Source: a virus. From it: 64,000 bases of DNA. The stretch spans positions 62,001 through 126,000 of the IMG/VR virus record IMGVR_UViG_3300027736_000020, one strand, 5' to 3'. This document shows, piece by piece, positions 31,267 through 60,829 of this stretch. Numbering within the stretch: position 1 is the stretch's first letter; every line of letters starts with the position of its first letter. The translations under genes and the position numbers were made by a program. The notes under the pieces were generated by a model. The model made no database searches and was not told the DNA's origin. It worked only from the letters and a program-made list of their open reading frames with translations.

Positions 31267-31287
31267 AGTAGTTCTCCTTTTTCCTTT

Positions 31288-32886: not shown

Positions 32887-32897
32887 AAATTTTCTCC

Positions 32898-33944: not shown

Positions 33945-33961
33945 TGTTTTTGGCCATCCTC

Positions 33962-34022
33962 AAAAAAAACAGACCATCTTTATCACCGAGAATGCAATAC
34001 ATTCCTAGCGACGAAGATGGTC
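33962..34022 (-). terminator. Hairpin terminator upstream of protease gene
   Basis: A 9-bp stem (33972-33980 with 34014-34022, GACCATCTT/AAGATGGTC) is followed on the minus strand by a run of eight T. The large loop can form an inner GAATG/CATTC stem. It lies in the 164-base gap between the 201-aa gene and the protease gene. The rest of that gap (34023-34108) holds no gene. It contains a TATTATATG sequence (minus) that could be a -10 box but lacks a matching -35. Confidence 0.7.
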
Positions 34023-39921: not shown

Positions 39922-40695
39922 TTACATCACCACTCCGGATTGTACGACATTTGTATCAAAATTTTCGGCTTTTATGACTGGAAGATTTTCCAAAGGCATA
40001 GAACTCATATCTTCATCATCTATTTTGTGTCCCGCTTGATTCAAATAATACAATTGTAAATAATTATAAATAATTTTATTATGAAGATCTGTTGCATGAA
40101 TGACTTCCGGAGTTGCTCGTAAAATCTGTGGTATTCCTACCATGGGCAACAACAAATGAGAAGGTTTGTCGCAAATACCCAATGCGACTAATGACGCCCA
40201 TATGTATGCTGACTCATTCATTCCCATGGATTTCTGTTCTTCAATGAGATTTTCATCATATCCTGCTCGCCAATGAGGACACGTATCCATGCTTGAGGCA
40301 TACACAAGAAACTGAAAGTTTTTTATTTTTGGATTTAGGCATTTGCGTTTCAATGGATCCTTGCTGTTTTTTTCAGAAAGATATATGCATCCAATGCATG
40401 ATTTAAATTGTAAAAAATACCACCAAACGACGTGTTTGCCATTTGGCATTTTTGGAAGATCTACTCTTTCAACACCCAAGCATGCCATCATGTCAACAAC
40501 TTGTTCTGGACGAGACAGTATGTTCTGAGGAAGAGGTGAACGGTATGGTTCCAATTTTTTGGATAAGTCATCCATGAAAAATTTTGCCCAATCCCTATTT
40601 GCCGTATCAGACAATCTTGATCCAAATTGATTTTCGACGATGGATGGCACAGGTATTTTTACGGAAAAATTACTTGAGACTGTAGGATTATTCAT
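39922..40695 (-). CDS. Cysteine-motif protein of unknown function
   Basis: 257 aa from the ATG at 40695, whose ATGA overlaps the stop of the 1363-aa gene. The frame is open 16 codons further upstream, but that start would lie inside the preceding gene. It contains 'FKSCIGCIYLSEKNSKDPLKRKCLNPK' type sequence with C-x-x-C, then single Cys residues, and later 'DTCPHW', a possible zinc or Fe-S site of four cysteines. The C-terminal half is helical ('YIWASLVALGICDKPSHLLLPMVGIPQILRATPEVIHATDLHNKIIYNYLQLYYLNQAG'). No family is recognised. Confidence 0.65.
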   Translation of the reverse strand: MNNPTVSSNFSVKIPVPSIVENQFGSRLSDTANRDWAKFFMDDLSKKLEPYRSPLPQNILSRPEQVVDMMACLGVERVDLPKMPNGKHVVWWYFLQFKSCIGCIYLSEKNSKDPLKRKCLNPKIKNFQFLVYASSMDTCPHWRAGYDENLIEEQKSMGMNESAYIWASLVALGICDKPSHLLLPMVGIPQILRATPEVIHATDLHNKIIYNYLQLYYLNQAGHKIDDEDMSSMPLENLPVIKAENFDTNVVQSGVVM

Positions 40696-43600
40696 CTGGA
40701 CATATTCTTTTCTGGTTGTTCTTCCATTGGTTTGGCATTCCACACATTGTTTGACAAAAAGTGTGTGTGATTATTTGAAATGAATATTTCCGAATGATCA
40801 AGTTTTGGCAATAATACTTTTTCCTTGTTGCCCATAGGCAACAAGACAGAAATAGTTGCCGGATTATCTCCGTAATATTTTTCAGATGCCATGTCACTTG
40901 GAGCAACTTCTGAAGTATTTGCTCGAACCTCATACGCACCAATGATCGCTATTCTGCTTGAATCTGCACAAACTATTGTTCCATCATTATTGATAATAGT
41001 GGAATACCCCATGTGCAATGCTACTTTTTCCATGTCAAACATATCGTTGTTTGTCAATGTCAAAGAAAAAAGTGAACTTCCATTTTTTGATTGTTTCCAT
41101 TTTTTCCACGCCAAATATGTTTCTTCCAAATCTTTTTGCATTATTACTTTTCCCATATGATAATCAAATACAATCATGTATTTATCATCAACGATTTTTT
41201 CGTAATTATTTATTGAAGACATGATAGAAGCAATTGATTCTTTGTTTTTTATTGGAGAGTTCACCAGAGCATGCAATCCCGAATAAGACAATCCAAGATA
41301 ATTTTTCATACCAAGAAAAAACATGTTATTTACAGAATTTTTGTTTGTCCAGACAAAACATCGAGCAATTGAGCCTGTTGCTCCATCATAACTCATTCCC
41401 AAATCGCGAGCATAGGAAATTGCCGGATTTGTTTTTATCTGATTGATAACTGTTTTCATTTTTTTGAAGTATTGAGGATTATAAGAATGTAAAACAGACT
41501 CTCCATAAAACAATGGGATTCCATCATTAAAATCATTGACTTTTTGAACAAATTCACCCGAAAGTATTGTTTTCCTGTTTTGTGTAGGTATTTTTTTCCC
41601 AGCCATCATTGATTTTTCTGATTCCCAAATTTGTTCAATATTTACAGGAAAGAACTTATTTATTTGCATGTATTCACAAATCATTTGAAGAAGAATTTCA
41701 GGAGAAACAAAAGTATGTTCAGAAATTTCTTCAGAAACATTTTTCCCTTCTATTCCAAATTCCGGAATACTATCAACATCACAACGATAAACGTGATAAA
41801 GCATTTGCGCAGTGTGTTGATCGCCAGCAATTTTTGCAAGATGTGAAATCGCATCATCTACCGATCCTAATTTTCCTGTCTGAGCCTTGCCAAAAGCATC
41901 ATGATAACGAATTATTTTCATGAACATTTTTTTTTCTTCGGGATTGAAGAAAAATTCCGACGCAAATGATTCAGCAAGGATTGAAGAATATTTTGCATGC
42001 TCCTCTGAAACGCCGCCAACTCCTCCATCTTCACGAGAAGCTTTGCCAATGTCATGAAGTAGCGCTGCAACACGCAGGACGCGTATTGAGCGATCATTTT
42101 GAATCTCCTTGGCAGGACAATAGCCATTTGGTCTTGTGACATCAACAAGAGTGGCGCAATTTAACGAATGAGTCAATACGTCAATATTCTTGTGTCCCGG
42201 TCCTTGTTGCATTCCTTTCAATGAAGGAAACTGACGTGTCAGCCAAGATTTTACTGTCTCATATTGAGCAGACATCATGGTGTTATCTGGCAAGAATGGC
42301 ATTTCCCACTCAATGGTGTCTGTTTTGCTGGCAGAAAATAATTTTTCTGATGTTTTTGCGTAGCTTCCAGAAGAAATTCTCATATTTTTTTGAGCATTTA
42401 TTCCTTCAGTGTTAACCCAAAAAATAAAATCTGGAAGATATCCACAAACAATCATTTGCAGGCTTGAAAAAATGCTTACATTTCCAAATGCAAATTGCCT
42501 TTCTGGTTTGTATAAGAATATTGGATTTCCGTTATTGTCTGTGCAGGAAATTGAAAATGAATATATTTTTGAAAAGTCACTAGGAACGACTTTCTTTGTT
42601 TTGCTTGGAGAAGGAGTTTCTTTTGAGATTCTTTCAGCATGTAACCGCACGGAATACGAAAAATTAAATTTTTGATTATCAACTTTGATGAAGTCAAAAT
42701 ATGTTTTTTTGTCTGAAGCATTTGCCGGAATATCAAATTCGGTAACTTTGATCAAGCTTGGAACAAGCATCTTGTCCTTGGCGTTCATGGCAGTTGTATG
42801 CACTGCATGAATAATTGGAACAAAATTGATAAGTTTTACTGCAGATTCCTGATCTTTTATTTTTGATGATATTATTTGAGATTCATAAAAATTGGAAACT
42901 ATGGAAAAAAATTCTTTATAGTCTTGTATTGTATTGTTTTCAGGAGAAAGACTCAATAGTTCATTTTTCTCAAAAATACTTACATAATCAGTAAGATTTC
43001 CGTTTACTCTTTCCATGTTTCCATATTTAACAATGATAGAACTTGCATCATTTATCGAATACGATATGGGAACTGATGGAATGGTAATGGTTGCCGGAGC
43101 AACTCTTTTCCCAAGTATTGATTCTGATTTCATGTTTTCCAAAGAGGCTTCAAAAAGAATTTCATTGTTAACGGTATATTCAAAATCAGTAAAATCTGGA
43201 GCATTTTTAATTTTCATTGCTTTTGCCAATGCGACAAGACCAATGATATTTTCTCGATCTTCTTCTTCGGCAGCAATGAATATCTCTTGCACTTGCTCAA
43301 AAAAATTGTTAAAGAGCGTAACAATATGTCCTTTAGAAATATGTTGCCAATGAACATCTACATGAAAATTACTTCCCGGATATTCCACCCTGTAGGAATT
43401 TTCTGAAATCGCCTTGACAATTGCGCCTGTTAAAAATGTATGCCACCATATATTAGGGTTGAGCAACTCGTTTTTCATCTCGTGTGATTGCTTGTCCAAA
43501 ATATTTGCAATAGGATTCATGGATCTTGTGGGAAAATATGATGGAGCAATAATTGATACCTTGGAAGCAACTTGTCCTATTGAAGAAGAAGGAACATACG

Positions 43601-44783
43601 AAATATACCCCGAAAACCTCATCGCGCTCCAAGGATTTGCATTTGGAGCACAAACTGCTTTATGTGGCAAGGCCATGTTTCTTGCTGCAGAATACACATA
43701 CATTGCCAGTTCTGACATCATGTATGTAGAAATAAATGACGCACAAGGTCGTGCGACATGTTTAATAAAATGCATTTCTTGAAAATTTGTGGATATTTGA
43801 CCTATTTTTTTCCCATTCTTGTCGTATATTTCAATGATCCAGCTTTCATCAAGCCCTGTAATGCCCCTGAATGTTCTGCAAGCTATTGAAAAAATTTTTC
43901 TTTTTTGATTATTCTTTATCTCACATCGAAGCGTATGCATGTCTTTATTGACATATTTTTGCCAATTTGAAGATTCTTTTACTTGCTCAAACACATACAA
44001 AAATGAATTTTTCCTGTTTTTCTTTCTTTCGTCCTCAGAAATGAATCCATTTGAATCAAAAATTATGGCTTTTTCCAGAAATTCTGCTTCAGCAATAATG
44101 GTGCTTGTTGACATGTCATTTGCAAGAGACATTTCAAAGTCATGATGGGGATGACGCATTTTTTGCGAAAATGTTGCCCTCATGTTTGGCAAAAAATCCA
44201 TATCCTGCTTTTCATACGACCATACGCCTGTTGAAAGATATGAGCCATCACCCCAATGTTCAGAAGTCTCATTCTCATCTCTGGATGTCATATCGGGATT
44301 TTTTACATAAAAATTGAATTTTCCTTTCTTTTGATAGGAAGAAAGAATATTCATCAGAAGTTTGTATTTTTCTGATATTGCTTTTCCAAATTTCAATATT
44401 TGATCTTTTGTGTAAATGTTTGATATAAGAGAAAGAAGCAATTGAACATCTCCGCTTGGAATATTTTTTTTGTTGCAATATGCGTACAGTTTCATGTAGG
44501 AAAATAATTTTCTTGATATTTCCAACAAATCATTTTCGGAAAAAACCTGAGGAGGAAAAATATTTTTTAGTTCATGCGCAAAAATTAATTCTTGATTCAC
44601 AATTTGCGGATCCTTGTTCAGGAAAGAAGGCAAAACGGAATCAATCGGCAAATTAAAAAATACAGGATCAAGTTTCTTGAACACAGAAATACTGGGAGAT
44701 TGAGCCTTATGCAAAATCTCAGAAAAACTTTTTAATTTGTCTGGAATGGAAAAAAATGGAATTAATGATTGCTTGTTTTCCAT
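40692..44783 (-). CDS. Giant protein with HD phosphohydrolase domain
   Basis: 1363 aa, beginning MENKQSLIPFFSIPDKLKS. The only recognised domain is an HD metal-dependent phosphohydrolase at about residues 850-1020. 'GPGHKNIDVLTHSLNCATL' supplies the first His and 'VAALLHDIGKA' the HD pair near residue 908. 'EEHAKYSSILAESFA' and 'IIRYHDAFG' supply later His/Asp ligands. HD domains cleave phosphodiesters or nucleotides, sometimes as cyclic-nucleotide or dNTP hydrolases. About 850 residues before it and 340 after it are unassigned. It sits in the same strand and block as the DprA-like and helicase giants, so a packaged, injected multidomain protein is likely (inference). Confidence 0.75.
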   Translation of the reverse strand: MENKQSLIPFFSIPDKLKSFSEILHKAQSPSISVFKKLDPVFFNLPIDSVLPSFLNKDPQIVNQELIFAHELKNIFPPQVFSENDLLEISRKLFSYMKLYAYCNKKNIPSGDVQLLLSLISNIYTKDQILKFGKAISEKYKLLMNILSSYQKKGKFNFYVKNPDMTSRDENETSEHWGDGSYLSTGVWSYEKQDMDFLPNMRATFSQKMRHPHHDFEMSLANDMSTSTIIAEAEFLEKAIIFDSNGFISEDERKKNRKNSFLYVFEQVKESSNWQKYVNKDMHTLRCEIKNNQKRKIFSIACRTFRGITGLDESWIIEIYDKNGKKIGQISTNFQEMHFIKHVARPCASFISTYMMSELAMYVYSAARNMALPHKAVCAPNANPWSAMRFSGYISYVPSSSIGQVASKVSIIAPSYFPTRSMNPIANILDKQSHEMKNELLNPNIWWHTFLTGAIVKAISENSYRVEYPGSNFHVDVHWQHISKGHIVTLFNNFFEQVQEIFIAAEEEDRENIIGLVALAKAMKIKNAPDFTDFEYTVNNEILFEASLENMKSESILGKRVAPATITIPSVPISYSINDASSIIVKYGNMERVNGNLTDYVSIFEKNELLSLSPENNTIQDYKEFFSIVSNFYESQIISSKIKDQESAVKLINFVPIIHAVHTTAMNAKDKMLVPSLIKVTEFDIPANASDKKTYFDFIKVDNQKFNFSYSVRLHAERISKETPSPSKTKKVVPSDFSKIYSFSISCTDNNGNPIFLYKPERQFAFGNVSIFSSLQMIVCGYLPDFIFWVNTEGINAQKNMRISSGSYAKTSEKLFSASKTDTIEWEMPFLPDNTMMSAQYETVKSWLTRQFPSLKGMQQGPGHKNIDVLTHSLNCATLVDVTRPNGYCPAKEIQNDRSIRVLRVAALLHDIGKASREDGGVGGVSEEHAKYSSILAESFASEFFFNPEEKKMFMKIIRYHDAFGKAQTGKLGSVDDAISHLAKIAGDQHTAQMLYHVYRCDVDSIPEFGIEGKNVSEEISEHTFVSPEILLQMICEYMQINKFFPVNIEQIWESEKSMMAGKKIPTQNRKTILSGEFVQKVNDFNDGIPLFYGESVLHSYNPQYFKKMKTVINQIKTNPAISYARDLGMSYDGATGSIARCFVWTNKNSVNNMFFLGMKNYLGLSYSGLHALVNSPIKNKESIASIMSSINNYEKIVDDKYMIVFDYHMGKVIMQKDLEETYLAWKKWKQSKNGSSLFSLTLTNNDMFDMEKVALHMGYSTIINNDGTIVCADSSRIAIIGAYEVRANTSEVAPSDMASEKYYGDNPATISVLLPMGNKEKVLLPKLDHSEIFISNNHTHFLSNNVWNAKPMEEQPEKNMSR

Positions 44784-45470: not shown

Positions 45471-48400
45471 TCACGAATTTGCGGAACTTATTTGAGTGCA
45501 AGCGTTAAAAAATGGTTCACTTTGGTCGCCATTGATATGTCCAAGTATTTTTTTTGTCCATTCCGTAAAAGACAAAGTTACTCTTGCTGGATCTTTAAAT
45601 ACATCGTCGGGTATTTGGTCAGTATTTTTGCCATAATTTGAAAACCCTCCCCTAAATATGTATTTTACTTTTCCTGTTTGAGTATCCATGTGTTCTTGAA
45701 GCTCTTGACTTATTTGTTGAGGCATTGAAATGCCCATGTTTTCTAAATATTTTTTGTAAACATCTCCTCCTGTTGATCCATCATATTCTGAAGTAAGAAA
45801 AGTTCTCCAAAACATTGCTTTCATCATGCGATTTTGTTCGTTTTCGTCATCTGTTTCTTCCCGAATTCTTGCAACCACATCTGCTCTTGTGATGGGTGAA
45901 TCCGGACTATCAGTTTCCAGTTTTTTTTCTTTTATTCCATCAAAAAGTTTTCTTCTTATTCCTTCAAAGTCAGAATTATTTGCCCAATTCTCATACATTT
46001 CTTTTTCTTTGCTGTACACGCCATAGAGAGCAAGTACTTTGGATGATTCATCGTCAAAAGTTCCTATTCCCGCAGGACGAGTGCCAGTATTGGGAGTAAT
46101 TCCAAAATTATCAAAAAGTGAATTTACCTTGGCATTTCTTTCATCTTGCATATCAAGAATAAAATTCCATGTGTTTCTGCCATTGAAATTCAGTGGATTG
46201 AATTGAATTTGACTTTGTCCTGCTGCTTCAGATAGTTTATCAATCCATTGATATTTTTGTTTTTTATTCAAGTCACTAAATTTTTTTCCTTCAACAGTAA
46301 TTATCTTGAAATCGGTTAATTGCAGTCTTTGTGACGATCCATTTGTGTAACTGGAAATTACTTTTTCTATTACACTACGCCTTGGCGTATAACCAATAGC
46401 GTCTCGCGTCAATGTCGAGTCTCTTTCGATTTTTTCTTTCGAAACATCCTCTTTCAATGATTTTCCCTGTATTGATGTTTGATTATTTGGACTATACGAA
46501 GCTTCACAATGTTTGTCAACAATAGCTTTGATTGATTTTATTACAGTATTATACGAACCTCGTTCAGTAACCGGAATATTAGTCGCGAAGTCATCAACTT
46601 CAGGAAAAGGAGCACTACCATTTGGATTTGTTTTTAGATAAACATATCTCATGTATGCTTTTGCAAAGAAAATTGCTTTTTTCTGTTTCAACAATAGTGA
46701 TGGATCTGAAGATGCTAGATCTGAATCCTGTATCCCTGCAACGGCGTCTACATATTTTTTCCCGTAAAGTTGGTCAGTAGCCAATGTCATCAAACCGTCT
46801 ATTTGTTCACTAAGTGGAACGACAGGTGAGGTTCTGTTATTTCCTATATTGTTTGCAAACCCAACATTTGCTGCCATTCCCATTGCCAGATACATATGTT
46901 CCATATCTTTACTGCGATTGCCTGTGGTGGTTGTTCCAATTACAACAAATGTAGAAGGCCTACGTTGTGTTGCCGTCTCAAAATCTTTTCCTTGAAAATT
47001 TACACTGGAAGAAAAACCCAATTCTTTGCTTTTGTCTATTGTTCCACTTTTCCCATTCAAAAGTTTTGTTTTCCATCCATCATCGGTATCAGTATCTTTT
47101 GTTTTAACTGTTGTGTCTTGAGAAGCTCGGGCTTGCGGCAAGAATAAAATGTCATTGGCATCCTTGCTACTTGAAAAAGTTACTGCTGGGACAACCATTG
47201 AAAGATCCTTGCCTGTTGTTGTAAGTGATCTGGTCGGTATGGGAGCAAACATCAATGGACTTTGAGGAACAAAGTAAAGCATTACATTGGATTTGGCAAG
47301 ATTTTTAAACCATTGTTCTGCAAGTCGTGATATTTGTTGCGGTTGGCCAAGAAGACCTGTTATTTCTCTTGCTCTTTGCACTCTTCCGGAATTTATTCCC
47401 GAAAAATCTTCAGAACCATATCCATTATTTCTTCCAAATAAAGTTTGCATGGGAGTAATAAAATTATTTGCTTTTAGTCCCCAAACATGGTTTTTGTTTT
47501 CGTCGAATATTTTCGACAAAAAATTTGATCCGGGAAATACAACCTTTGGTTTTCCCTTGTCGTCACTTATTAATGATTTTACTTGTCTTACGCTGGAATC
47601 TACGGCGTCATCTGTCCAAGGACAATTTATATGTACTTCATCTCCTTTTGAAACAACATTGCTTGTAGATGCAGAATAATCTTCAAATGCATCTTGCGGA
47701 ATATTTTTCTGTGAATCATCATAAGTAAATTCAGGATATTGATCATGAGCATATCCGTCAATGTGACGAGGGTCTAGAGGGCTTCCATTTGGTTCGATAA
47801 CAGGCCCTGTTGATTCCATCAATCCCCTTGCAGACCCATTTATTTTTACTTTGCTAGCAAGGATTTTTTTTCCTCCGGCAATATTTGCACTTGCCTGTTC
47901 TTTGGCAATTGATTGAAATCTTTGTCTTCTTGCCGTATATTCGGCAAGAATAATCATTGATTGCACTTTTCCTGTACTGTCAACATAATTATTGAATTTT
48001 TTTATACCATTTCCGCTTGACACATTTGAAGGATAATAATACGTGTGTTTTGAAATTACAAATTTTTTGCCACCTAATCCTTCTCGAAACATCATTATTT
48101 GCTGGAGCATTACTGGCACTGTTGTTTGACCACCTGTTCTGTTCGTAGTTGTGTATGCTCTTGTTTGTCTTTTTACTTCAATACGAATAGGACTTGATGG
48201 TGCGCCAAGAACATACGTTGAAGATTTTATTCTTGGATCAAATCTCATTCTTTTTAACGATGCAATTCCTATCTGTTTTCTGTCAGATACATTTTCTTCT
48301 TCAGACAAACTTATTCCGTTGTTAAAATCATGAATTTGCTTGTTGCCGCCATATTCCGTAGAATAATTTAAATCATCAACATTCCATTTCCAGTAATTTT

Positions 48401-51400
48401 TTGGTCCGTTTTGCAGCCAAATCCCATTATTGCTTCTTTTTGGAATCACGCCTTTTGCTAGTGCCAAAACTCCTGAATTTCCCGGAGAAGTATCATTTGT
48501 ATCGGCATATATTTTTTTGCCAATTGCCATGGCTCGAACAATTGCTGACATTTTTCTTGAAGAAAAATGCGTTTGAAAAAGAACCAACACATTTGAAAGA
48601 CTTTGCTGAAGCTGCATTGATGGACTGAAACCATTTCTTTTTGTTTCGTTTGAACTTGATGCGTATTGCCAGTCAATTTTAGGTTTCTGAAAGTTTCCGG
48701 GAATTGTTTGCGTTTGTGTTACGTAATCAAACGCTCTTCGAAGAACTTCTGGAGGATATGGTGAAATAACCAAGCTTGATCCATCTCGTTCTATGCCTCG
48801 TTGATAATAATTGTGTTCCCATGATTGACGGACATCTTCTTTCCTGTACGGCGCAATAAATTTTTCTAGAATTGTTCCTCCTTGTCTTGCCTCCTCAAGT
48901 TTTGGTTTTAAATCCATCATCCTTGAGACAAGATCATTGAAAGAAGCGGAAAAATCTCTTTTTCCATCTTCACCTACAGAATATTTTATGCCATATGCTC
49001 CGTTTTCCAGAATAATTCTTTTATTACCGGAAATCAAGATATCTGCAAGCTCTCTTTGTTCATCAGAATAACTGCTTGAGTTTTTATGCCAGCTTTCAGG
49101 ATCGATTGTTGCAAGAATTCTTCCTTGATGAGTGGTGCTTCCTGCTGTTCTCATTGTGCCGGTATCGTAAGTTTTTCCAATTCTTGTTTCCGGTGTCTCA
49201 AACGCAATTGTTCCCAACGACATTCCTGACTGAAGCCTGTTTCTTTTAAGAAGATAATCAGCTGACGGAGATTCTCCGGGAAGCCTTTCTGATATGATCA
49301 ATCCTCCATTTGCAAGTATTTCATTCATGAGAGTAGTTCTCGCAACATCTTTTGTTTGCGAAGCATTAAACAAAACAGGAACATTTTCTGCGTCAGAATT
49401 TAACCCTTCTCCAAGAATTGCAACGGTTTTTCCGTATCCTGAAGGAGTTTTTCCGTCTGGAGACATTGCAAATTTGTGACATATTGAATCTGTTCCGTGA
49501 GCTAATCCACTTATCATCACCCAATTGTTTTGAGCAAATTTTGCTGCAAGTGATGCGGCAAAAACAAATCCATTCCCAATTAATTGCGTACCTTTTTTGA
49601 GATTTGCACCACTCCAACTGCCCGGTTTGTCAGTCCCCATATTTCGCGTACCAACTCCTCCAACAGTTAATGCCTGCCCACTTGCAAGCGAATAAAGAAG
49701 ATTTTGGCCACTTGCTTCCTGTTCCGCATTCAAACCGTTATGACGGATAAATAATAGTTGCGGGGCATCTTCGCCAATGTTTCTCAAAAGCGCGGGATAT
49801 TTTTCCATTGATAATGGAGTGACTATTTCAGTGTTGGTTCTTGCAGCCCAAGCTTTGCAACTTTCTGCAAGATTTTTCAAAATTCCATCTCTTGCCATCG
49901 GTTGCAATGAATAATCTCGAATCATGGACTCAATACCATCATCTGTGATAGAAGAATTTACCTGTTTGATAAATTTTCTTACATCATTTCCCCCATCTTT
50001 AAAAAGTTTTGTTATTTTAGTGTTTAATGCGGTGTCAATCAATCTTTTTTCAAAATCATCCAATGATTCACCGTTAACAAAATTCATTTCTTTTGTTCCG
50101 TTGGTGTAATCCTCCGGGTCTCTATTGAAATCAAATGATTTTTGAGAATCTGGAATAAACAAAACAGGATTGTCAAATTCATTTCTGTTTTCATATATCA
50201 TTTCACTGGGATCAAATCCTGAATATCCTCCATCATACACTTTTGAGGTATTTTCAGGAATTATTGAACACAATAAGAACTGTTGTCCAAATTCTTTTGC
50301 TTTCTGAATTGCATCTAATTCTTTTTTTTCTATTGCCGGAACAATGTGTTCTTCAAATAACTGTTCTATTGTGTCTGCGTTGACATCTTTTACAGTTTGA
50401 TCTGCAGAAATTTCTCTTCTATTGTCTGTAGAGTTTCTAGATATTCTTTCTTTTTCAGCCGTATTATCATCAAGTATCTTGGAGCCTTCACTCCATATTT
50501 GTGTCCATCGAGGATTCGTCCAATGAAGTCCCAGTTTATCCAATGTCATTGCAAGGTTTGTCGCTGCAATTCTTCTTTCCATCTGGCTTTGCGTCAAGGG
50601 TTTTTCCTTGGAGAGAAATGTTCGGGTTCCTTGTTGAGAAGTATTGTCTCTTGAATTTCCGGACGTTACGGTGACCCTTTGCCCTGCGGGTCGAGGAAAA
50701 TCTTCTCCAAGGAATCCTCTTTCGTCGGCAAGCATGCTTTTTAGAACTTCGACTTGATTTTTTCGAAAAGAAGGAATGGGATCTCCAAGAACTGAAGCTA
50801 CACTTTTGGTCGAGGTTATTGCTCCTTTGTTTCCTTTCATGAAATAAACAAGCGGAGAACCTCCCTGTATTCCCTCGTTGTCTTTAACAGGACCAAGTCC
50901 GGGAATCAATCCAGTTATTGCATCAGGCAAATCGATTGAATTTGCAGGCACTATTTGAAAACCGAGCATGTCTGCTGTAATAGCCATTTGATGGGCTTTT
51001 TCAACATGGTTTGATAGTGCTTCTTCGGGATTTTTTTCGCCAAAATATGAAACTCCATTATTTGAAACATGAAGTTTGTGCTCTAATACAATTTTTAAAA
51101 AATCATCAAGTGTGATTGACTTTTCTTCTATTTTTGCACTTTCTCTCGAATCAGCATTTTCATTATATGTTAAGCCATTCAATTCCTGATGTTTTTTGGC
51201 CAATGTATCCATTAAAGCAAACAGTTTTGTTCCTTCTTTGTTTTCATTCAACCAATGGTTATCTTTTATAATATCAGGTCGTTCTATTGTATCTGTTGTT
51301 TGCAGCGGATCTTGTTCTGAATTATATGTATTTCTATTTATGTTATCTTGATCATTAATAAATGATTCTGGAGTCAGGCTTCTTATGTCATCATCTGGAT

Positions 51401-52139
51401 TTTCTTCATCTGCTTGTTTTTGTTCCAGCTCAAGAGTTTCAGGAACATACGGATCTTGTTCGTCTCGTTCATATGATGATGCAGGATCATCTCTTATAAA
51501 TACGGTTTTTGGAACAAGAGACATTATCTCCATTCTCATTTGCTGTATAACAAGCGCCTGTAAAGCCATAGGAATGTATGCTATTCCATCCTTGATTTGC
51601 AATCTTGCTGTTGTTGAGGGTGCATCTTCATTCTTTGGCGAATATTGGAGTTTTTCAGACAATGATCTTACAAAGTCTTCAATATTTCCATGAGTTTCTC
51701 CATTGAGGCCTACTGATTTCAAGTAGTCAAAATTACCTGAAGCGGCTGTTTCAACAGCGGACTTTGCGTTTATTTTTCCTGAACTGGTGACATGAGAATC
51801 TAATCCTCCAACGGTTATCTGTCCATCGTCGTGATAATACGTTGGAACTCCATAATGAAATGCTTCCTCTTCATCTCCGTCAAACTCTTGATCTTGTCTG
51901 TCTTCATGAATGTCAGGCGTGGTTGCATCTCCATGCATATCCGCAACAATTGCAGAGGATTTTCCTCTCTCCGTTGTGACGGATTCATTTTTGGTAATTG
52001 ATCCCGAACTTCTTCCATATACCCATTCCCATGCTTCTGATCCATCCTCATGACGTACGCGTTTCCAAAACCCTACTCCTCCCCTGCTTCCGGGATTTTG
52101 AATTCTTCTGTATGGCTGAGGAAACTGAGGGTTAATCAT
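45471..52139 (-). CDS. Giant polyvalent-type protein with DprA/Smf-like domain
   Basis: 2222 aa, beginning MINPQFPQPYRRIQNPG. Residues about 775-1060 match the DprA Rossmann fold. They show 'KYPALLRNIGEDAPQLLFI', 'LTVGGVGTRNMGT', 'WVMISGLAHGTDSICHKFAM', 'KTVAILGEGLN', 'GGLIISERLPGESPSADYLLKRNRLQSGMS' and 'LISGNKRIILENGAYGI'. A second, partial copy follows at about 1116-1240 ('SLVISPYPPE', 'NVLVLFQTHFSSRKMS', 'AIGKKIYADTNDTSPGN'). DprA binds ssDNA and loads RecA in natural transformation. About 750 residues before and 1000 after are unassigned; one segment is 'IRIEVKRQTRAYTTTNRTGG'. It carries the VTVTSG segment shared with the helicase giant. It is probably a virion-packaged, multifunctional protein (inference from size, place and domain mix). 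Confidence 0.82.
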   Translation of the reverse strand: MINPQFPQPYRRIQNPGSRGGVGFWKRVRHEDGSEAWEWVYGRSSGSITKNESVTTERGKSSAIVADMHGDATTPDIHEDRQDQEFDGDEEEAFHYGVPTYYHDDGQITVGGLDSHVTSSGKINAKSAVETAASGNFDYLKSVGLNGETHGNIEDFVRSLSEKLQYSPKNEDAPSTTARLQIKDGIAYIPMALQALVIQQMRMEIMSLVPKTVFIRDDPASSYERDEQDPYVPETLELEQKQADEENPDDDIRSLTPESFINDQDNINRNTYNSEQDPLQTTDTIERPDIIKDNHWLNENKEGTKLFALMDTLAKKHQELNGLTYNENADSRESAKIEEKSITLDDFLKIVLEHKLHVSNNGVSYFGEKNPEEALSNHVEKAHQMAITADMLGFQIVPANSIDLPDAITGLIPGLGPVKDNEGIQGGSPLVYFMKGNKGAITSTKSVASVLGDPIPSFRKNQVEVLKSMLADERGFLGEDFPRPAGQRVTVTSGNSRDNTSQQGTRTFLSKEKPLTQSQMERRIAATNLAMTLDKLGLHWTNPRWTQIWSEGSKILDDNTAEKERISRNSTDNRREISADQTVKDVNADTIEQLFEEHIVPAIEKKELDAIQKAKEFGQQFLLCSIIPENTSKVYDGGYSGFDPSEMIYENRNEFDNPVLFIPDSQKSFDFNRDPEDYTNGTKEMNFVNGESLDDFEKRLIDTALNTKITKLFKDGGNDVRKFIKQVNSSITDDGIESMIRDYSLQPMARDGILKNLAESCKAWAARTNTEIVTPLSMEKYPALLRNIGEDAPQLLFIRHNGLNAEQEASGQNLLYSLASGQALTVGGVGTRNMGTDKPGSWSGANLKKGTQLIGNGFVFAASLAAKFAQNNWVMISGLAHGTDSICHKFAMSPDGKTPSGYGKTVAILGEGLNSDAENVPVLFNASQTKDVARTTLMNEILANGGLIISERLPGESPSADYLLKRNRLQSGMSLGTIAFETPETRIGKTYDTGTMRTAGSTTHQGRILATIDPESWHKNSSSYSDEQRELADILISGNKRIILENGAYGIKYSVGEDGKRDFSASFNDLVSRMMDLKPKLEEARQGGTILEKFIAPYRKEDVRQSWEHNYYQRGIERDGSSLVISPYPPEVLRRAFDYVTQTQTIPGNFQKPKIDWQYASSSNETKRNGFSPSMQLQQSLSNVLVLFQTHFSSRKMSAIVRAMAIGKKIYADTNDTSPGNSGVLALAKGVIPKRSNNGIWLQNGPKNYWKWNVDDLNYSTEYGGNKQIHDFNNGISLSEEENVSDRKQIGIASLKRMRFDPRIKSSTYVLGAPSSPIRIEVKRQTRAYTTTNRTGGQTTVPVMLQQIMMFREGLGGKKFVISKHTYYYPSNVSSGNGIKKFNNYVDSTGKVQSMIILAEYTARRQRFQSIAKEQASANIAGGKKILASKVKINGSARGLMESTGPVIEPNGSPLDPRHIDGYAHDQYPEFTYDDSQKNIPQDAFEDYSASTSNVVSKGDEVHINCPWTDDAVDSSVRQVKSLISDDKGKPKVVFPGSNFLSKIFDENKNHVWGLKANNFITPMQTLFGRNNGYGSEDFSGINSGRVQRAREITGLLGQPQQISRLAEQWFKNLAKSNVMLYFVPQSPLMFAPIPTRSLTTTGKDLSMVVPAVTFSSSKDANDILFLPQARASQDTTVKTKDTDTDDGWKTKLLNGKSGTIDKSKELGFSSSVNFQGKDFETATQRRPSTFVVIGTTTTGNRSKDMEHMYLAMGMAANVGFANNIGNNRTSPVVPLSEQIDGLMTLATDQLYGKKYVDAVAGIQDSDLASSDPSLLLKQKKAIFFAKAYMRYVYLKTNPNGSAPFPEVDDFATNIPVTERGSYNTVIKSIKAIVDKHCEASYSPNNQTSIQGKSLKEDVSKEKIERDSTLTRDAIGYTPRRSVIEKVISSYTNGSSQRLQLTDFKIITVEGKKFSDLNKKQKYQWIDKLSEAAGQSQIQFNPLNFNGRNTWNFILDMQDERNAKVNSLFDNFGITPNTGTRPAGIGTFDDESSKVLALYGVYSKEKEMYENWANNSDFEGIRRKLFDGIKEKKLETDSPDSPITRADVVARIREETDDENEQNRMMKAMFWRTFLTSEYDGSTGGDVYKKYLENMGISMPQQISQELQEHMDTQTGKVKYIFRGGFSNYGKNTDQIPDDVFKDPARVTLSFTEWTKKILGHINGDQSEPFFNACTQISSANS
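50657..50686 (-). repeat. 30-base segment shared by two giant genes, copy 1
   Basis: Identical to 58975-59004 at 29 of 30 positions, and in the same reading frame (G-Q/R-R-V-T-V-T-S-G). It falls at about residues 485-494 of the DprA-like giant. Flanking DNA is not similar to that of copy 2. Confidence 0.85.
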
Positions 52140-53128: not shown

Positions 53129-56100
53129 TCATGAATTTTCTGTATACATAGATCTTTTTAGATTTATTTTTTCCAATAATTCCTCAAGAAAAGGAGACCT
53201 TCCGTTTGAAGCAGTGCATATATGCAATTCATTTTCCGCTCTTGTCATTGCAACGTAAAAAAGATTTTTTTCTTGTTCTCGTGCAATTTCGTAATCTTTT
53301 TCATCTTTGCTTTCTGAAATGCGACTGTGCGGCCACCTATCATCCGTTACATTGTACAAAAATACTGTTTCAAATTCAGATCCTTTTGATTGATGTGCGT
53401 TTATTACTACTACTCCGCTTTTCTGTTCTTCATCGTGAGGTTCACCCCCAAAGTCTTCTTGCATTTCTTGATACAAGGTCATATCTTTGGAAGATGGAGC
53501 AACTTCTATTTTTAAATTGTAAAGTCTTTTCCTGAGGTCTGCAGCTTCTTTATTGGTTCTGCAAATAATTGCCATTGGAGGAACAAACACCCCTGCTCCC
53601 TTGTCTGTCCAAGGTATACGAACTCGATCATCTGGCCGGGCTTCGGATCCAAATTTTTTTCTAATGATGCTTGCCATGTAATTATCTTGCTCATTCATGG
53701 ATGCTTTTCCACTTTTGCTTTTGGCATTGAAAATATTTACTGTCCCTGACGCAGATCCAATTGTATCCCCCATTTTTCCAGAAATCCAATTTCTGCCGTC
53801 AAAAATAGTTGCCAATTGTGCCAATATGTATCTTGCTCGATAATTTACGCCAAGCATGACATTTTTTACTTTTCCTCTTGTGGAACCATTAAATAATCCA
53901 TGCCATTTTTCAAAATTTGTCGCATCAGAGAATTCTGTATTTGCGCCTCTGAATCCATATATAGCTTGATGTTCGTCGCCAACAACGGTGAGATTTGCTC
54001 CGTTTGATGCTGTTACTGCCTTAATAAGTCTTCTTTGCATTAAATTTATATCTTGAAATTCATCAACCATTACATGACGATATCTCGCTCGTACGTTATT
54101 CCTATCGTGATTGTTGTTTTCAAGATGTTTTGCTACTTTTGATATTAAGTCAGAATAATCCAGTTGATTATTGCTAGAAAGCATTTCATTGTATTTATGC
54201 CATATTCTTTCCAAAACAGGATTTTCCTTAATTTCTGACATGTTTTCAGTATCTTTTGCAGCCTGTATCTTTGTTGCAATTGTGGAGGAAAGACTTCCTT
54301 CTCCGGTATTTAATGCTCTCAACGCTACTTGTTGAGGCAAAGTAAATTGATTTATTATTGCAGTAATCATCTCTTCTTGTTTGTTTGTTCCTACCAATTG
54401 CAAATCTGGATCAAATGCTTTCTTTGTTCCTGTTTTTGCATTGTAATTTATTCCATCTATATTTAAAGCATCTACACCAGTAATTAATGAAAGGGCAAAA
54501 GAATGTGTTGTTGCTATTGTTGGATTTGCTCTGTCATCATTTATGTTGCCTGTTTTGAACGATAAAATACCGTCTTGCTTGCTTTTGTCTCTTAATTCGT
54601 TGTCAGTAAGACCTTCTTGTGTCAAAAATGTTGCAAATTTTCCCTTTTCTGCCGTGAATGAATCTTTGACTCTTCTTCTTGCGTCCCGAGAAAAAGTCAA
54701 CATGAGTATTTGTTCTTGGGAAACTCCGTATAATGACGACAACATGAGCATCAAAGCAACCAATGATTTTGTTTTTCCTGATCCCGGAATTCCCTTAACA
54801 ATTGTAGGTCCTGTGTTGTCTTGTTTTATTGCTGCCAATTGCGTGTCATTAAGCATGTCTTCAAAATATTTCGTTATTGCAACTTCTCTTGTGGCCCCAT
54901 TTCTTCCCCTTATGGTTTGAGCAGCTGTAGTCAATGTCGGACTTTGTCTGTCTCCTGAATCTCTAACAGTATTAACGGGAATTCTTTCGTGATCTTCAAT
55001 TTTGGATCCATTAGTATTTTCTTGCATGAGATCCTCATATCCATCAGGATATCTTCCATTCTCAAAAGCATTTGTCCAATTTATTCTGTTTTTTGCTTCT
55101 CCTTGTTTTGCTATCCAAAACAGCCTTAAAACTTCTCTTGTCCTTTCTTCATCGTCTGCACTATCATCATTTATTGCTTTTAGTTTTTGTATCAATGGAA
55201 TAGATGTGTCAGTTTCCTTCAGTGCAATTTTAAGAATGTCTAAAGCGTCTTTTTTTGTATCATCATCTTGCATTGATTTTTCAACATAACTGTCGCACAA
55301 CTGCCAATACAAATCTGACAAAGGATTCTTTGATCGTGATCCCCAGAATATTGTTCCATCTGATGCTTTCCATGTTGTTTCTGCTCCATCTACAGCAGAA
55401 GAGCTTAATCCTTGACCGCCCGGAAGAGATTCTATTGAATTTTTGTTTCCTGAATGAATAACAATGTTTATTTTCAAAGATTTTAATATGTCAAGCAATT
55501 CCTTGCTAAAAGATCCAATGGTTTTTCTCATGTCTTGAGGAGAAATAGTCCAATAATCAGGTATGTCTGTTGTTGTTGCGCGAGAATAATGTTCTGGAAT
55601 AGTAAAAACATGATTTTTTAGAAACTCACCATGTTCAGGAAATTTGTCAAATATTCCATCTTCATTAATTCCTGCCCTCAATGGTGATGGACTTGATGTG
55701 ACATCATCAGCAATATTTTTTAGAATCCGCATTGAAGGAATTGTTGCTGCTTCAGAATTTATGATTGCTTGATGATTTCGAAGTAATTGATCCTGTGATC
55801 CGTTATTCAAAGAAGAAATAATTTTGAAAATATCCGTAATAGCATCTGTATATGAAGATTGTTCAGATTGCGGTGGAATTCTATATATAACATCACTTGG
55901 TGAAATCTTGTGAATTGCAAATTGTTTTTCAGTTTTTTCTATGCGGTCTTTTTCTTTTTGAGATTTATCAAACGCTTCATTTATTGCCGCTGTTCTTGTT
56001 TCCGGATCTTTATCATAGCTTCCATTGAACAATTGTTCGTTTTTACTAAATTCTTCAAATTCTGTTTTCAATGATAAAAGTGTAGTGGCTGCATCACTTA

Positions 56101-59100
56101 TTTCTTTTTTATCACTTCTTGCTAATTGTTCTAAATTTCCTTTTGAAAATGAGAATCCAAGACTATAGCCTTTTCTTTCGTCAAGAGCATACAATGTTCC
56201 TTCTGCCCTGTCTATGTCTTTTACTAGTGTCCATTTTTCGACATCTCTGGCATTTGTAAACGAATTTGTTGACTGATAAGGAAATCTCATGTTATCATCA
56301 TCAGGTTTTGCGTCTGTTTTAATTGCTATTTTAGATCCCGGCAATAACGATGCTCCATTCAAGATGGTGTTTGCGTTATGAGTATCTATAATTACAAAAT
56401 GAACAGCAGTTCGTCTTAATTTTTTTTCTTCGTCTTTTTTTAATTTTCTTCTCTGATCATAACTATTCGGATCTGCATCGTCCAATGCTTTTGGAGCGCT
56501 GAATCTACCAAACAACTCTTGTGCTCCACTCCATAATTTAGAAATTCTTCCTTGTTCTACTTCTTTGTCAAGATTTAATTTTTCGTTATTTTTTTTGCTG
56601 AAAAGTCCACTCATATCAAGATAAAGGCTTTTGGGGTCTGCAAGTCTTCCAAACATTTTTGAAAAAAATAGTGACGCATAATTTTTGTCTTTTTTGTCAA
56701 GAAGGGTTTGTTGATGCTGACTGTTTGGTTTGATTGCATCATCAGTATGATTGTCTTCGGATTCATAATCTGTATCTGAAACAACAGGTAACATTACAAC
56801 AGCAAAATTTCCTCTTGTCGCTACTATTCTCCCTATAGCACTAGGATTAACTCCTTCAGCTGCTAAGCTAGCCAAACCTTTTGTAAAAAATTCTTTTATT
56901 TCAGGATCAATGTTCCATCCAGTAAAGCTTTGCAACCTTTCAAGTTGTTGATTATTTGATAAATTAGCATTAATATTTCCATGATCTGCAATTTCTGAAA
57001 TTTGAGTTATTTCTGATGGCCGGAAAACGCCTAAATCTAACTGGGGAACATTTGTATTGCCCAATACTGCATCCAGCGTATTGTTTGCAGCACTTTTTAC
57101 ACTTGAAAAATTACTACTAAAAAGATTATTATCTGCTTTCATTTTATGCGACAGCAATTGCGCTTGATGTCTTATGGGTGTCATGTCAACCCAATATTTA
57201 GTATTGCCGTTGGCATCTTTTCCAGATATTACTTTCAATGAAATGCTTATTGAATTACCAGTGTTTGTGGTTGCCTGATTGCCATTTGCTGGATTTTCTT
57301 GATCTATCCTTTTTGTTCCAGAAAACGTCAATCCATTTATTGTAATAAATTTACCATTTGCCGAAAGACTAAACCCAAGATTTTGTCCTTCAGTCATTAT
57401 GACTCTGTCACCTACCTGTGCATCTGCATTGTCTGCAATAATTAATCCTTTCTTATTATTTATTTTATTTTTCAATCCATTTGTTACTATTTTCAAGAGC
57501 TCTGCTTTGCTGGTTATTGGTGTTTTTTCAGGTTGCTCGACCCCAAAAAAAGCAAGTGACCCATATTCGTCATTTACCAATGAATGTGGAAACACCCATT
57601 CATGTGCCAAGCTTGGCTTTTCTCCATAAATTTTTCTCTCATCATCGGTTACGGGAGAAACATTTAGAGCAGTTATTACGGATGCTACTTCAGCTGGCGG
57701 AACATCCTTGGGAAGAGCGGCAGGATGTGTAAATCCTGTTTGCAAAATTGTATTATCTTTTTCGGCTTCATTGATTTTGACCAAAATATCATCATTGTCA
57801 ATAAGCCTTCTTATGGTGACAGATGGATGTTCTCCGGCAGGAGAAACAATAGGACTAGCACTAATTTTTGCTTGTTTTGCGATAATCATTGAGGGACTAT
57901 CTGCTGGACCTACCGCGCCATTGAGCATCATTCCGTCTGCAGGTTCTTGTTGTATTAGATTTCCATTTACGTCAAGCATTTTAGGGGTTTCTGAATTTTT
58001 CAATGCAATTGCTGCAACAAAATGTTGATTAGCTGCATGTTGAGCCATCGTGTCTTCAACAATTGATAATGCATAATTATAAAGTGCTCTTTTTTGAGCA
58101 CTATCGCCGCCACGTGAAGCGATTTTTATTTTTTGTTCTGCGTTATACTCCTGTTTTGTTTTAGAAAGTGAATCAAGAATATTTTGTGAACTAATTGATG
58201 TTGAATCGAGCAATTCAATAAAATCTTTTTCTGATGGATTTTTTGGCTTTCCTCTTTTAAAAACTGTATATTTTGAATTTTCTCTTGTTTCTTTTATCCA
58301 TTTCTCAATTTTTTCTTGTAATTCTCCTGCAAGATTTCCTTCTTCGATTTTTCTTTTTAAAAGAACATACTTGTCACCATCACTATTGTGCTTTTCCCAA
58401 GCACTTATTTTTTTTCTATCTTCTATTTGATCTTTAAGTGCTCCATGATTTGTCCCTGAATTTGAGCGCAAAAATGACGCAATATATTCGTCATCGGTTG
58501 GTTCGTCATTCTTGAGTTCAAAATCAGGATTTTTTATTTCATCCGCTACTTCATATGTGACTTGCGATATGGGAGTTGGCGGAGCTTTTTTCCAAAATGG
58601 ACTAGTGGCAAAAAAACTTTTTTTCTGATCAGGATTCAGGCCATTAAGAGTATCGTCGAAATTTTTCGTTGATTTGTACAGTGATCCATCTGGATTTTCT
58701 TTGTATATGAGAACGTGCATTTTAGTAAAATCATTTTCAAATTTTACATGAGCAAACATTGTTTCAACACCTGTTGTTGGTGGCCTAAGTCTAAAGAATA
58801 AGCTGCCATTTTCCATTCGAATAGGGTCAGTTCCTAATTCCGGCGGTTCTGCAACGGAGAATTTTGACACATCAGAGGGAATGTCTCTATGAATATCTTG
58901 AAAAGCTCCTGCTGTTCCAATTGGTTCAGAACCATCTGGAAAATATTCGCGATCATTGCCTGCTATAGTGGTTATTCCGGACGTTACGGTGACCCTTCGC
59001 CCTGTTGCATCAACAGGAGCAACTATTCCGGGCTGCTCCCTCATGTATTGAAGTGCTTTCTTTTTGATTGTTTCAATATCTGCTTGTCCATTTCCATTAA

Positions 59101-60829
59101 AAGTCAAAAAATCTACAAGTTTTCTAGCATTTAATGTCCAAGTTCCACCTTTATGTCCAGACAAATTTCTGTTTTGAAAATCGCTCAAAGACTCCTGTTC
59201 TGTTCCCGGAGCAAAGATTCCATTATCTTCTGCATTTCCAAAAGCTTTTAATATGTCATTCCTTGTCTTGTCAGGAAGACTTGAAAATGCATCTTTCCAC
59301 TTTTGTTTTTCTTCGTCAGTTTCAAATAGTTTTCCAGGGGTAGTTTTCCATTTCGTATATAGTTCTCCAAAAGAAAGACTGCTGTTTCTTCGAGCAGCAC
59401 CTAGTTTTTTTATTACTTCTTGATGCCATCTTTCAATGTTTTTCTTAGCATTAGGCCATCCAAAAACCCCTCCAAATGGCAGTGCAACGCCAATGTTTCC
59501 ATTTAATCTTGTATCGGCTTCCGTTGCCATCATTGATTTGCTTACTGCTTGATTCCTTAATATTGATGCATTGCTCCAAGCTTCAGTAACTTTTCTTGCA
59601 AGATTAGATATGTCTTCTGAATCGCTATCCTTTGCCGGAATTAAATTGTCAAGTATTTCATTGAGATGTTCCTTTCTTAGAGACCCTTGTACCCATATAC
59701 CATCTTCGTTTTTTTCAAATCTATCAGCGTGAGAAAGTATTTTGTCCTTATTGTCATCAGTTAATGCTGCTGAGTCCAGCAATCTCTTAAAGTCTTCGTG
59801 CTTATACAGATCAGCAAGGTGCTCGCGAACGGTATTCGGGTCAATATTCGACCCTTCGGTTGCTTCTGGAAGAGGAGCCAACAAACTGTCATCATGCCCT
59901 ATAAAATGATGCAAAGGAATTCCCAACAGGCTTGTTGGTTTATACAAATGATCAGTTAACTTTTGATGGTTTAAACTTAATAAACCACCTTTACGTCCAT
60001 TTCCTTTTTCCCAACCAAAAAAAGTCTTGAGAAGTTTTTTGGTTCCATCAGTCATCGAATGCCAATAAATATGTTTTTCAACCTTGTCTTGATCGGTTCG
60101 TACTTGGGTTTTTTCTGGATCAAAGCCGTTAATTGGACTAAACCCAATAAGACCAGATGCAGAAACAAAAACACGTTCTAAAATGCCTTGACTTATTGTT
60201 TTCTTTCCAAGATCAATTATTTTTGTTGGGAAACCTTCCGAATGAATGAACTTCATTGGTTGTACTTCCATTAGTACGCTTCCACCAGCATGAGCAATGG
60301 ACTTGTCTGATTCTGGTCCGTGTGTGTCAATTGTTCCATCTTCAATCGGAGGATATGTTGTCTTGGGAAATTTTACAAATCTTTCAACTAGTCTTTTTCC
60401 TGTGTTAGTTATCCTGTTCCATATGCCACGTTGTTCCGCTTGTTCTGGATGAGCAAGTCCTATTTGATCTCTGGTTAGCTGTACTCCATCTGCGGAAATT
60501 TTAGTAACTTTTGGATGTAGTATTCTAGTCATAACATCGGTTTGTTGTGGCTCAGAAGCCAAATGAGTAACATGAATTCCAACTGTTTCTCCAGCAATGT
60601 TTACATGATTACCAATATGCGTTAGTAGTCCTTTGTTGGTATCAAGAGGATGAACAGGACCTGATAATTCAACGTTATGAATTGGAGCATCACTTTTACT
60701 AAGGTCATCTGCGTTCAGTTCCAAATCACTTGCTCTGTTAGGTATACTTTGTGATTTGAAAAATAATCCAAATTTTATTTTTTTTGAAGAGAAAAAATCT
60801 TCGTAGATGCTTTTCTTAAAAATCAGCAT
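53129..60829 (-). CDS. Giant polyvalent-type protein with C-terminal UvrD/Rep-like SF1 helicase
   Basis: 2566 aa, beginning MLIFKKSIYEDFFSSKK. The C-terminal about 580 residues are an SF1A helicase. 'LNDTQLAAI' is a Q-like motif and 'IVKGIPGSGKTKS' the Walker A (about residue 2013). 'ILMLTFSRDARRRVKD' is Ia and 'ATTHSFA' follows. 'HVMVDEFQDIN' is Walker B (about 2255), 'LTVVGDEHQAIYGFRGA' is III and 'LGVNYRA' is IV. 'VVVINAHQSKGSEFETVFLYNV' is V and 'NLFYVAMTRAENELHI' is VI. All key residues are present, so ATPase activity is expected. The first about 1980 residues show no named domain to me. The VTVTSG segment shared with the DprA-like giant lies near residue 610. The ATG overlaps the stop of the 164-aa gene. 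The polarity of UvrD/Rep family members is 3' to 5'. Confidence 0.85.
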   Translation of the reverse strand: MLIFKKSIYEDFFSSKKIKFGLFFKSQSIPNRASDLELNADDLSKSDAPIHNVELSGPVHPLDTNKGLLTHIGNHVNIAGETVGIHVTHLASEPQQTDVMTRILHPKVTKISADGVQLTRDQIGLAHPEQAEQRGIWNRITNTGKRLVERFVKFPKTTYPPIEDGTIDTHGPESDKSIAHAGGSVLMEVQPMKFIHSEGFPTKIIDLGKKTISQGILERVFVSASGLIGFSPINGFDPEKTQVRTDQDKVEKHIYWHSMTDGTKKLLKTFFGWEKGNGRKGGLLSLNHQKLTDHLYKPTSLLGIPLHHFIGHDDSLLAPLPEATEGSNIDPNTVREHLADLYKHEDFKRLLDSAALTDDNKDKILSHADRFEKNEDGIWVQGSLRKEHLNEILDNLIPAKDSDSEDISNLARKVTEAWSNASILRNQAVSKSMMATEADTRLNGNIGVALPFGGVFGWPNAKKNIERWHQEVIKKLGAARRNSSLSFGELYTKWKTTPGKLFETDEEKQKWKDAFSSLPDKTRNDILKAFGNAEDNGIFAPGTEQESLSDFQNRNLSGHKGGTWTLNARKLVDFLTFNGNGQADIETIKKKALQYMREQPGIVAPVDATGRRVTVTSGITTIAGNDREYFPDGSEPIGTAGAFQDIHRDIPSDVSKFSVAEPPELGTDPIRMENGSLFFRLRPPTTGVETMFAHVKFENDFTKMHVLIYKENPDGSLYKSTKNFDDTLNGLNPDQKKSFFATSPFWKKAPPTPISQVTYEVADEIKNPDFELKNDEPTDDEYIASFLRSNSGTNHGALKDQIEDRKKISAWEKHNSDGDKYVLLKRKIEEGNLAGELQEKIEKWIKETRENSKYTVFKRGKPKNPSEKDFIELLDSTSISSQNILDSLSKTKQEYNAEQKIKIASRGGDSAQKRALYNYALSIVEDTMAQHAANQHFVAAIALKNSETPKMLDVNGNLIQQEPADGMMLNGAVGPADSPSMIIAKQAKISASPIVSPAGEHPSVTIRRLIDNDDILVKINEAEKDNTILQTGFTHPAALPKDVPPAEVASVITALNVSPVTDDERKIYGEKPSLAHEWVFPHSLVNDEYGSLAFFGVEQPEKTPITSKAELLKIVTNGLKNKINNKKGLIIADNADAQVGDRVIMTEGQNLGFSLSANGKFITINGLTFSGTKRIDQENPANGNQATTNTGNSISISLKVISGKDANGNTKYWVDMTPIRHQAQLLSHKMKADNNLFSSNFSSVKSAANNTLDAVLGNTNVPQLDLGVFRPSEITQISEIADHGNINANLSNNQQLERLQSFTGWNIDPEIKEFFTKGLASLAAEGVNPSAIGRIVATRGNFAVVMLPVVSDTDYESEDNHTDDAIKPNSQHQQTLLDKKDKNYASLFFSKMFGRLADPKSLYLDMSGLFSKKNNEKLNLDKEVEQGRISKLWSGAQELFGRFSAPKALDDADPNSYDQRRKLKKDEEKKLRRTAVHFVIIDTHNANTILNGASLLPGSKIAIKTDAKPDDDNMRFPYQSTNSFTNARDVEKWTLVKDIDRAEGTLYALDERKGYSLGFSFSKGNLEQLARSDKKEISDAATTLLSLKTEFEEFSKNEQLFNGSYDKDPETRTAAINEAFDKSQKEKDRIEKTEKQFAIHKISPSDVIYRIPPQSEQSSYTDAITDIFKIISSLNNGSQDQLLRNHQAIINSEAATIPSMRILKNIADDVTSSPSPLRAGINEDGIFDKFPEHGEFLKNHVFTIPEHYSRATTTDIPDYWTISPQDMRKTIGSFSKELLDILKSLKINIVIHSGNKNSIESLPGGQGLSSSAVDGAETTWKASDGTIFWGSRSKNPLSDLYWQLCDSYVEKSMQDDDTKKDALDILKIALKETDTSIPLIQKLKAINDDSADDEERTREVLRLFWIAKQGEAKNRINWTNAFENGRYPDGYEDLMQENTNGSKIEDHERIPVNTVRDSGDRQSPTLTTAAQTIRGRNGATREVAITKYFEDMLNDTQLAAIKQDNTGPTIVKGIPGSGKTKSLVALMLMLSSLYGVSQEQILMLTFSRDARRRVKDSFTAEKGKFATFLTQEGLTDNELRDKSKQDGILSFKTGNINDDRANPTIATTHSFALSLITGVDALNIDGINYNAKTGTKKAFDPDLQLVGTNKQEEMITAIINQFTLPQQVALRALNTGEGSLSSTIATKIQAAKDTENMSEIKENPVLERIWHKYNEMLSSNNQLDYSDLISKVAKHLENNNHDRNNVRARYRHVMVDEFQDINLMQRRLIKAVTASNGANLTVVGDEHQAIYGFRGANTEFSDATNFEKWHGLFNGSTRGKVKNVMLGVNYRARYILAQLATIFDGRNWISGKMGDTIGSASGTVNIFNAKSKSGKASMNEQDNYMASIIRKKFGSEARPDDRVRIPWTDKGAGVFVPPMAIICRTNKEAADLRKRLYNLKIEVAPSSKDMTLYQEMQEDFGGEPHDEEQKSGVVVINAHQSKGSEFETVFLYNVTDDRWPHSRISESKDEKDYEIAREQEKNLFYVAMTRAENELHICTASNGRSPFLEELLEKINLKRSMYTENS
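58975..59004 (-). repeat. 30-base segment shared by two giant genes, copy 2
   Basis: The partner of 50657-50686, with a single base difference that changes Gln to Arg. It lies at about residues 608-618 of the helicase giant. Matching codon choice across nine codons goes beyond what protein-level similarity would require. Confidence 0.85.

Follow-up and report, generated by a model that had tools for sequence, protein, structure and literature searches.

Analysis of the window, a stretch of 64,000 nucleotides covering positions 62001-126000 of a 184,088-bp virus record, revealed a giant open reading frame (ORF) of 2222 aa within a long block of minus-strand genes (Table 1). An ORF with a UvrD-type helicase domain precedes the giant ORF in this block, and an ORF with an HD domain and then the genes for the head protease, probable scaffold, major head protein and tail sheath follow it; the tail sheath gene indicates that the phage is contractile-tailed. 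The phage head protein bears a distant resemblance to the head proteins of SPO1-like phages and Bacteroides DAC phages. DNA_processg_A was the sole Pfam family above the cut-off in the giant ORF, and the number of recognised domains in its product was one. The first ~1960 residues of the UvrD protein, ahead of the helicase, belong to no recognised family, and the HD protein, which is conserved beside the giant gene in three related contigs, has many invariant residues outside the HD domain. No toxin gene (PRTase/HAD) was recognised beside the giant ORF among the large flanking ORFs (by Pfam) or the small ones (by PHROGs), and a search of the 184-kb record for RecA-family genes found none. The record also contains a gene for a class II (B12-dependent) ribonucleotide reductase (L048:7266-9818).

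Table 1 Coordinates of the giant ORF, its domains and motifs, neighbouring genes and related proteins
Feature	Position	Strand	Basis
Giant ORF, 2222 aa, housing the DprA-type domain	45471..52139	-	ORF listing, Pfam
Complete DprA-type Rossmann domain (copy 1), aa 770-1089	48873..49832	-	Pfam, HHalign, AlphaFold2, Foldseek, PADLOC
GVGTRN motif, aa 828-833; R832 aligns with SpDprA R115	49641..49658	-	
SGLAHGTD motif, aa 877-884	49488..49511	-	
AILGEGLN motif, aa 907-914	49398..49421	-	
ISERLPGE motif, aa 949-956	49272..49295	-	
KRNRLQSG motif, aa 965-972	49224..49247	-	
Claimed second partial copy, aa 1116-1240; weakly resembles the C-terminal half of DprA, its status as a domain not being established	48420..48794	-	HHalign, BLAST, AlphaFold2
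C-terminal region, aa 1753-2202, common to the nearest relative G001 at 24% identity	45534..46883	-	Sequence comparison
2566-aa ORF upstream of the giant ORF; UvrD-type helicase at aa 1993-2541	53129..60829	-	Pfam
1363-aa ORF downstream of the giant ORF, HD domain	40692..44783	-	Pfam
Head genes, same strand as the giant ORF	29521..34000	-	Including PHROGs
Head protease	32898-33944	-	Head gene block
Probable scaffold	31288-32886	-	Head gene block
Major head protein	29521-31266	-	Head gene block
849-aa protein of the window phage, outside the window; DarG/macro-like region, then NADAR	G000:C1:146598-149144 (L049:1598-4144)	-	DarG, phrog_335 matches
4278-aa phage ORF of G006 (L015); DprA, NADAR and YspA-type SLOG	L015:3050-15883		
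Phage ORF of G004 (L017), at least 3907 aa; DprA, NADAR and YspA-type SLOG	L017:1-11721		

The giant phage protein carries one real, complete DprA-type domain. A preliminary description of this DNA had placed a DprA-like Rossmann domain in the ORF; the ORF and the quoted motifs were all recovered in place, and Pfam, HHalign, the AlphaFold2 model and Foldseek agreed on the domain (copy 1). The Pfam family (PF02481) matched copy 1 with an E-value of 4.1e-22 (78.9 bits against a cut-off of 29.6), and HHalign comparison with 31 bacterial DprAs gave a probability of 99.4%. In an AlphaFold2 model of aa 770-1290, generated from an alignment of 61 sequences, the pLDDT of copy 1 was mostly 80-97, with a few loops lower, and the whole Rossmann sheet was present, with strands at aa 824-829, 873-878, 905-909, 947-950, 976-979 and 1008-1012 and a terminal helix reaching aa 1087. 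The top Foldseek matches of copy 1 were DprA (3maj), ShosA (8zva), SpDprA (3uqz) and HpDprA (4ljk), the solved DprA and ShosA structures matching with E-values of 7.5e-13 and 5e-11, respectively; a molybdenum-cofactor carrier, ThsA and LOG proteins came next.

The preliminary description had also proposed a second, partial copy at aa 1116-1240. On a tandem reading, this segment would be a degenerate duplicate of the DprA C-terminal half, acting as a partner or regulator of copy 1. The motif strings quoted for the segment do follow one another in the stated order at aa 1122-1227, but a BLAST comparison between the two copies returned no match. HHalign comparison of the segment with a profile of the DprA C-terminal half under default gap settings gave a score of 19.65 (probability 3%), which was equalled by none of 150 shuffles and by one of 178 real windows of phage proteins. 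Loosened gap settings, picked after two separate weak matches had been seen, raised the score of the same segment to 26.6 (probability 26%; 0/150 shuffles and 0/178 real windows as high), and this post hoc result is exploratory. Copy 1 is complete without the segment, which thus does not complete the first fold, and in the AlphaFold2 model the segment had a pLDDT of 31-57 and was mostly helical, with no second Rossmann unit; hardly any related sequences span the segment, so that this low-confidence model cannot exclude such a fold. Profile comparison did not detect the segment in the giant proteins of two relatives, G006 and G004 (see below). Taken together, the ordered strings and the scores above the shuffles and nearly all real windows speak for a tandem DprA, but the low HHalign probabilities, the BLAST result, the model and the relatives make it unlikely. 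A proposed correspondence between the segment and the strand-helix-strand element that follows DprA in the relatives was not supported by profile comparison (score 11.8). Residues 1501-1543 (window 47511-47639) resembled this DprA-NADAR element somewhat better, in a weak match with an HHalign probability of 3%.

When viral contigs were searched directly, neither the whole protein nor the domain pair yielded any relatives. Related contigs were reached via a search with the major head protein, and the HD protein as query led to the same contigs. The giant ORFs of G006 and G004 both encode DprA, NADAR and YspA-type SLOG domains in one polypeptide and sit in the slot of the window ORF, upstream of the HD gene; homologues of the HD ORF come after the giant gene in G001, G004 and G006, and the UvrD-helicase ORF occupies the equivalent position, upstream of the giant ORF, in G006. 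The YspA-type assignment was based on sequence motifs (GITGSR, HGGA.G.D and a strand with AIWDGKS); the SLOG domain of G006 matched phrog_289 (E = 3e-17), and that of G004 gave weak Pfam SLOG matches. No domain was recognised over most of the length of the two relatives' ORFs. Their proteins are homologous to each other over about 3300 aa (25.6%), and the DprA region alone, at about 23%, was detectably shared with the window protein; because of this distance, the fusions in the relatives may not describe the window protein. Between the window phage and G001, the HD proteins are 61% and the head proteins 88% identical compared with 24% for the C-terminal part of the giant proteins, indicating that the giant protein evolves fast.

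The 80 other DprA-type genes detected in viral contigs all lay in ORFs of 567 aa or less, the search behind this count being weighted towards typical DprA motifs, so that giant proteins of this kind would escape it. Scanning genomes for similar domains turned up four bacterial DprAs and nothing else. The isolated phage DAC16, whose head protein is distantly related, contained no giant ORF within 20 kb on either side of the head gene, save an ORF of ~1170 aa cut by the edge. We found no description of a DprA-NADAR-SLOG fusion in the literature examined.

DprA homologues act as antitoxins in shosTA, syrTA and rqlHI (PMC9122126), and the best defence-library match of the window domain was PADLOC ShosA (PDLC03961), with an E-value of 4.3e-28 and 96.5 bits versus 78.9 bits for Pfam DprA; the G006 protein matched the same model at 8.1e-36. 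Inspection of 10 plasmid relatives revealed that nine lay beside or were fused to phosphoribosyltransferase, HAD, ComF or RecQ-type genes, in a sample that is not unbiased, as plasmid DprAs may often have such neighbours or fusions. A plasmid of Sinorhizobium alkalisoli contained two DprA-type genes close by (L186:2761-3729 and L186:5642-6492), one adjoining a phosphoribosyltransferase-family gene. Phylogenetic analysis placed the giant-protein domains in one clade of their own with support of 94/92, on long branches that may attract each other. A second tree separated the housekeeping DprAs on one side at 99/99, and grouping of the giants with the housekeeping proteins was not rejected (p-AU 0.45); membership of the window domain in ShosA is unproven by these sequence comparisons.

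Comparison with SpDprA (residue numbering from PMC4066776) revealed that the GTR arginine R115, an ssDNA-contact residue, is kept in the window protein as R832 and is lost in both relatives (A in L015, G in L017). The basic ssDNA patch K144, K175 and K202 is replaced by H, V and A, with an uncertain alignment at 175, and the RecA-contact residues E235 and D243 are replaced by G and I at positions that vary in other viral DprAs too. The missing contact residues, together with the lack of a RecA gene in the record, lower the likelihood of RecA loading, for which host RecA could serve. The domain might mediate recombination or DNA protection by binding incoming or replicating ssDNA and handing it to host RecA, together with the neighbouring UvrD-type helicase; the complete fold, the retained R832, the adjoining helicase gene here and in G006, and the proposal of jumbo-phage DprA/Smf as an ssDNA-binding protein (PMC7824862) are consistent with such a role, but the five substitutions, the loss of the arginine in both relatives and the 184-kb record free of a RecA-family gene render it rather unlikely. 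Loading of RecA onto injected ssDNA, as suggested in the preliminary description, is thus weakly supported at best, and the nucleotide-sensing or -hydrolysing function named there as an alternative accords with the context no less well, since the relatives join the domain with NADAR and a YspA-type SLOG.

The window phage itself encodes a NADAR in a separate 849-aa protein. The region ahead of this NADAR matched DarG (E = 4e-6) and also a phage phosphatase family (phrog_335); Pfam Macro (PF01661) gave no match to the protein, and the PDB search for a macro domain gave weak matches and nothing stronger. We read this region as a putative macro-type domain. In the NADARs of G006 and G004, inspection by eye revealed a histidine in the strand where phage NADARs carry histidine, which in these proteins replaces glutamate (PMC11125620). 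NADARs are antitoxins of DarT (PMC11125620), and combinations of SLOG and NADAR in viruses are predicted counter-defence parts (PMC9503650).

We tentatively favour a counter-defence role of the DprA-type domain, antitoxin-like or ligand-binding, over classical RecA loading, as a possible rather than a probable function, because ShosA is the best library match, nine of the 10 plasmid relatives adjoin or are fused to phosphoribosyltransferase, HAD, ComF or RecQ-type genes, the relatives carry NADAR and SLOG fusions, a separate NADAR protein is encoded in the window phage, and most ssDNA- and RecA-contact residues are missing. The giant protein would be produced from the virion-morphogenesis gene block and perhaps packaged and delivered along with the DNA. 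Its DprA-type domain would bind a host toxin, in the way that phosphoribosyltransferase/HAD toxins are neutralised by DprA proteins of the ShosA type, or alternatively would bind the nucleotide or ssDNA signal by which such a system is set off. The domain in the relatives would act in one polypeptide with NADAR, which takes ADP-ribose off guanine, and with the YspA-type SLOG, and ADP-ribose removal in the window phage would fall to the separate protein with its DarG/macro-like region and NADAR. The segment at aa 1116-1240 would play no necessary part in this role. Several findings argue against the counter-defence role: the tree leaves ShosA membership unsettled, the genes beside the ORF include no recognised toxin gene, a single domain is recognised in 2222 aa, and the relatives are far.

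If, like other SLOG proteins such as the ThsA sensor or the LOG hydrolase, the domain bound or degraded an NAD-derived signal, this would agree with the ThsA, LOG and molybdenum-cofactor carrier structures ranking next after DprA in Foldseek, with the fusions in the relatives, and with the role proposed for viral SLOG domains (PMC9503650). However, DprA and ShosA were far better matches than any LOG/YpsA-type protein and the analysis of the domain revealed neither a ligand nor a catalytic site, so that we consider such an activity quite unlikely. A broader form of the counter-defence proposal is that the giant proteins of these phages bundle antitoxin-type domains of several unrelated defence systems (ShosA-like DprA, NADAR and YspA-type SLOG) as a delivered multi-antidote, with the DarG/macro-like region and NADAR encoded separately in the window phage; this form is doubtful. 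If counter-defence proves true, phages would neutralise toxin-antitoxin defences with their own antidote domains joined in giant proteins, and phage DprA-like domains would gain a use beyond recombination, with ShosT/PsyrT-type toxins and DarT as testable pairs. Even if it is wrong, the DprA-NADAR-SLOG fusion is documented.

Earlier publications describe antitoxins that are DprA homologues (PMC9122126), jumbo phages with DprA/Smf (PMC7824862) and viral SLOG-NADAR combinations (PMC9503650). ShosA, the antitoxin of ShosTA (PDB 8zva, 9vzo), is both the best defence-library and the best PDB sequence match of the window domain and has the same Rossmann fold, and ShosA-type proteins occur in phages too; however, ShosA stands alone at ~300 aa beside its toxin, whereas the window domain forms part of a 2222-aa protein, beside which no toxin gene was recognised. 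The DprA/Smf mediators (SpDprA 3uqz, HpDprA 4ljk) have their fold and most of their sequence motifs in common with the window domain, the GTR arginine among them, but their basic-patch and RecA-contact residues are mostly unconserved in the window protein, which also lacks the classical DprA size and domain arrangement. As in the viral SLOG-NADAR-Macro proteins (PMC9503650, PMC7824862), the relatives combine a SLOG-superfamily domain and NADAR in a single phage protein, and the window phage genome encodes a NADAR with a macro-like region. Whereas viral SLOG domains belong mainly to the YpsA-like clade (PMC9503650, PMC7824862), the NADAR-fused SLOG member in the relatives belongs to the DprA type and sits in far larger proteins.

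Polyvalent proteins (PMC5512222), multidomain proteins of mobile elements for which co-delivery with DNA has been proposed, are likewise very large, and one such giant protein is known to contain a UvrD helicase. DprA is absent from the domains listed in PMC5512222, which mentions it once as a functionally coupled protein; one domain was recognised in the window polypeptide and three in each of the G006 and G004 polypeptides, and the gene position near the head genes would fit delivery of the window protein with DNA. On the counter-defence reading, the window protein would be a variation on the known theme of multidomain conflict proteins.
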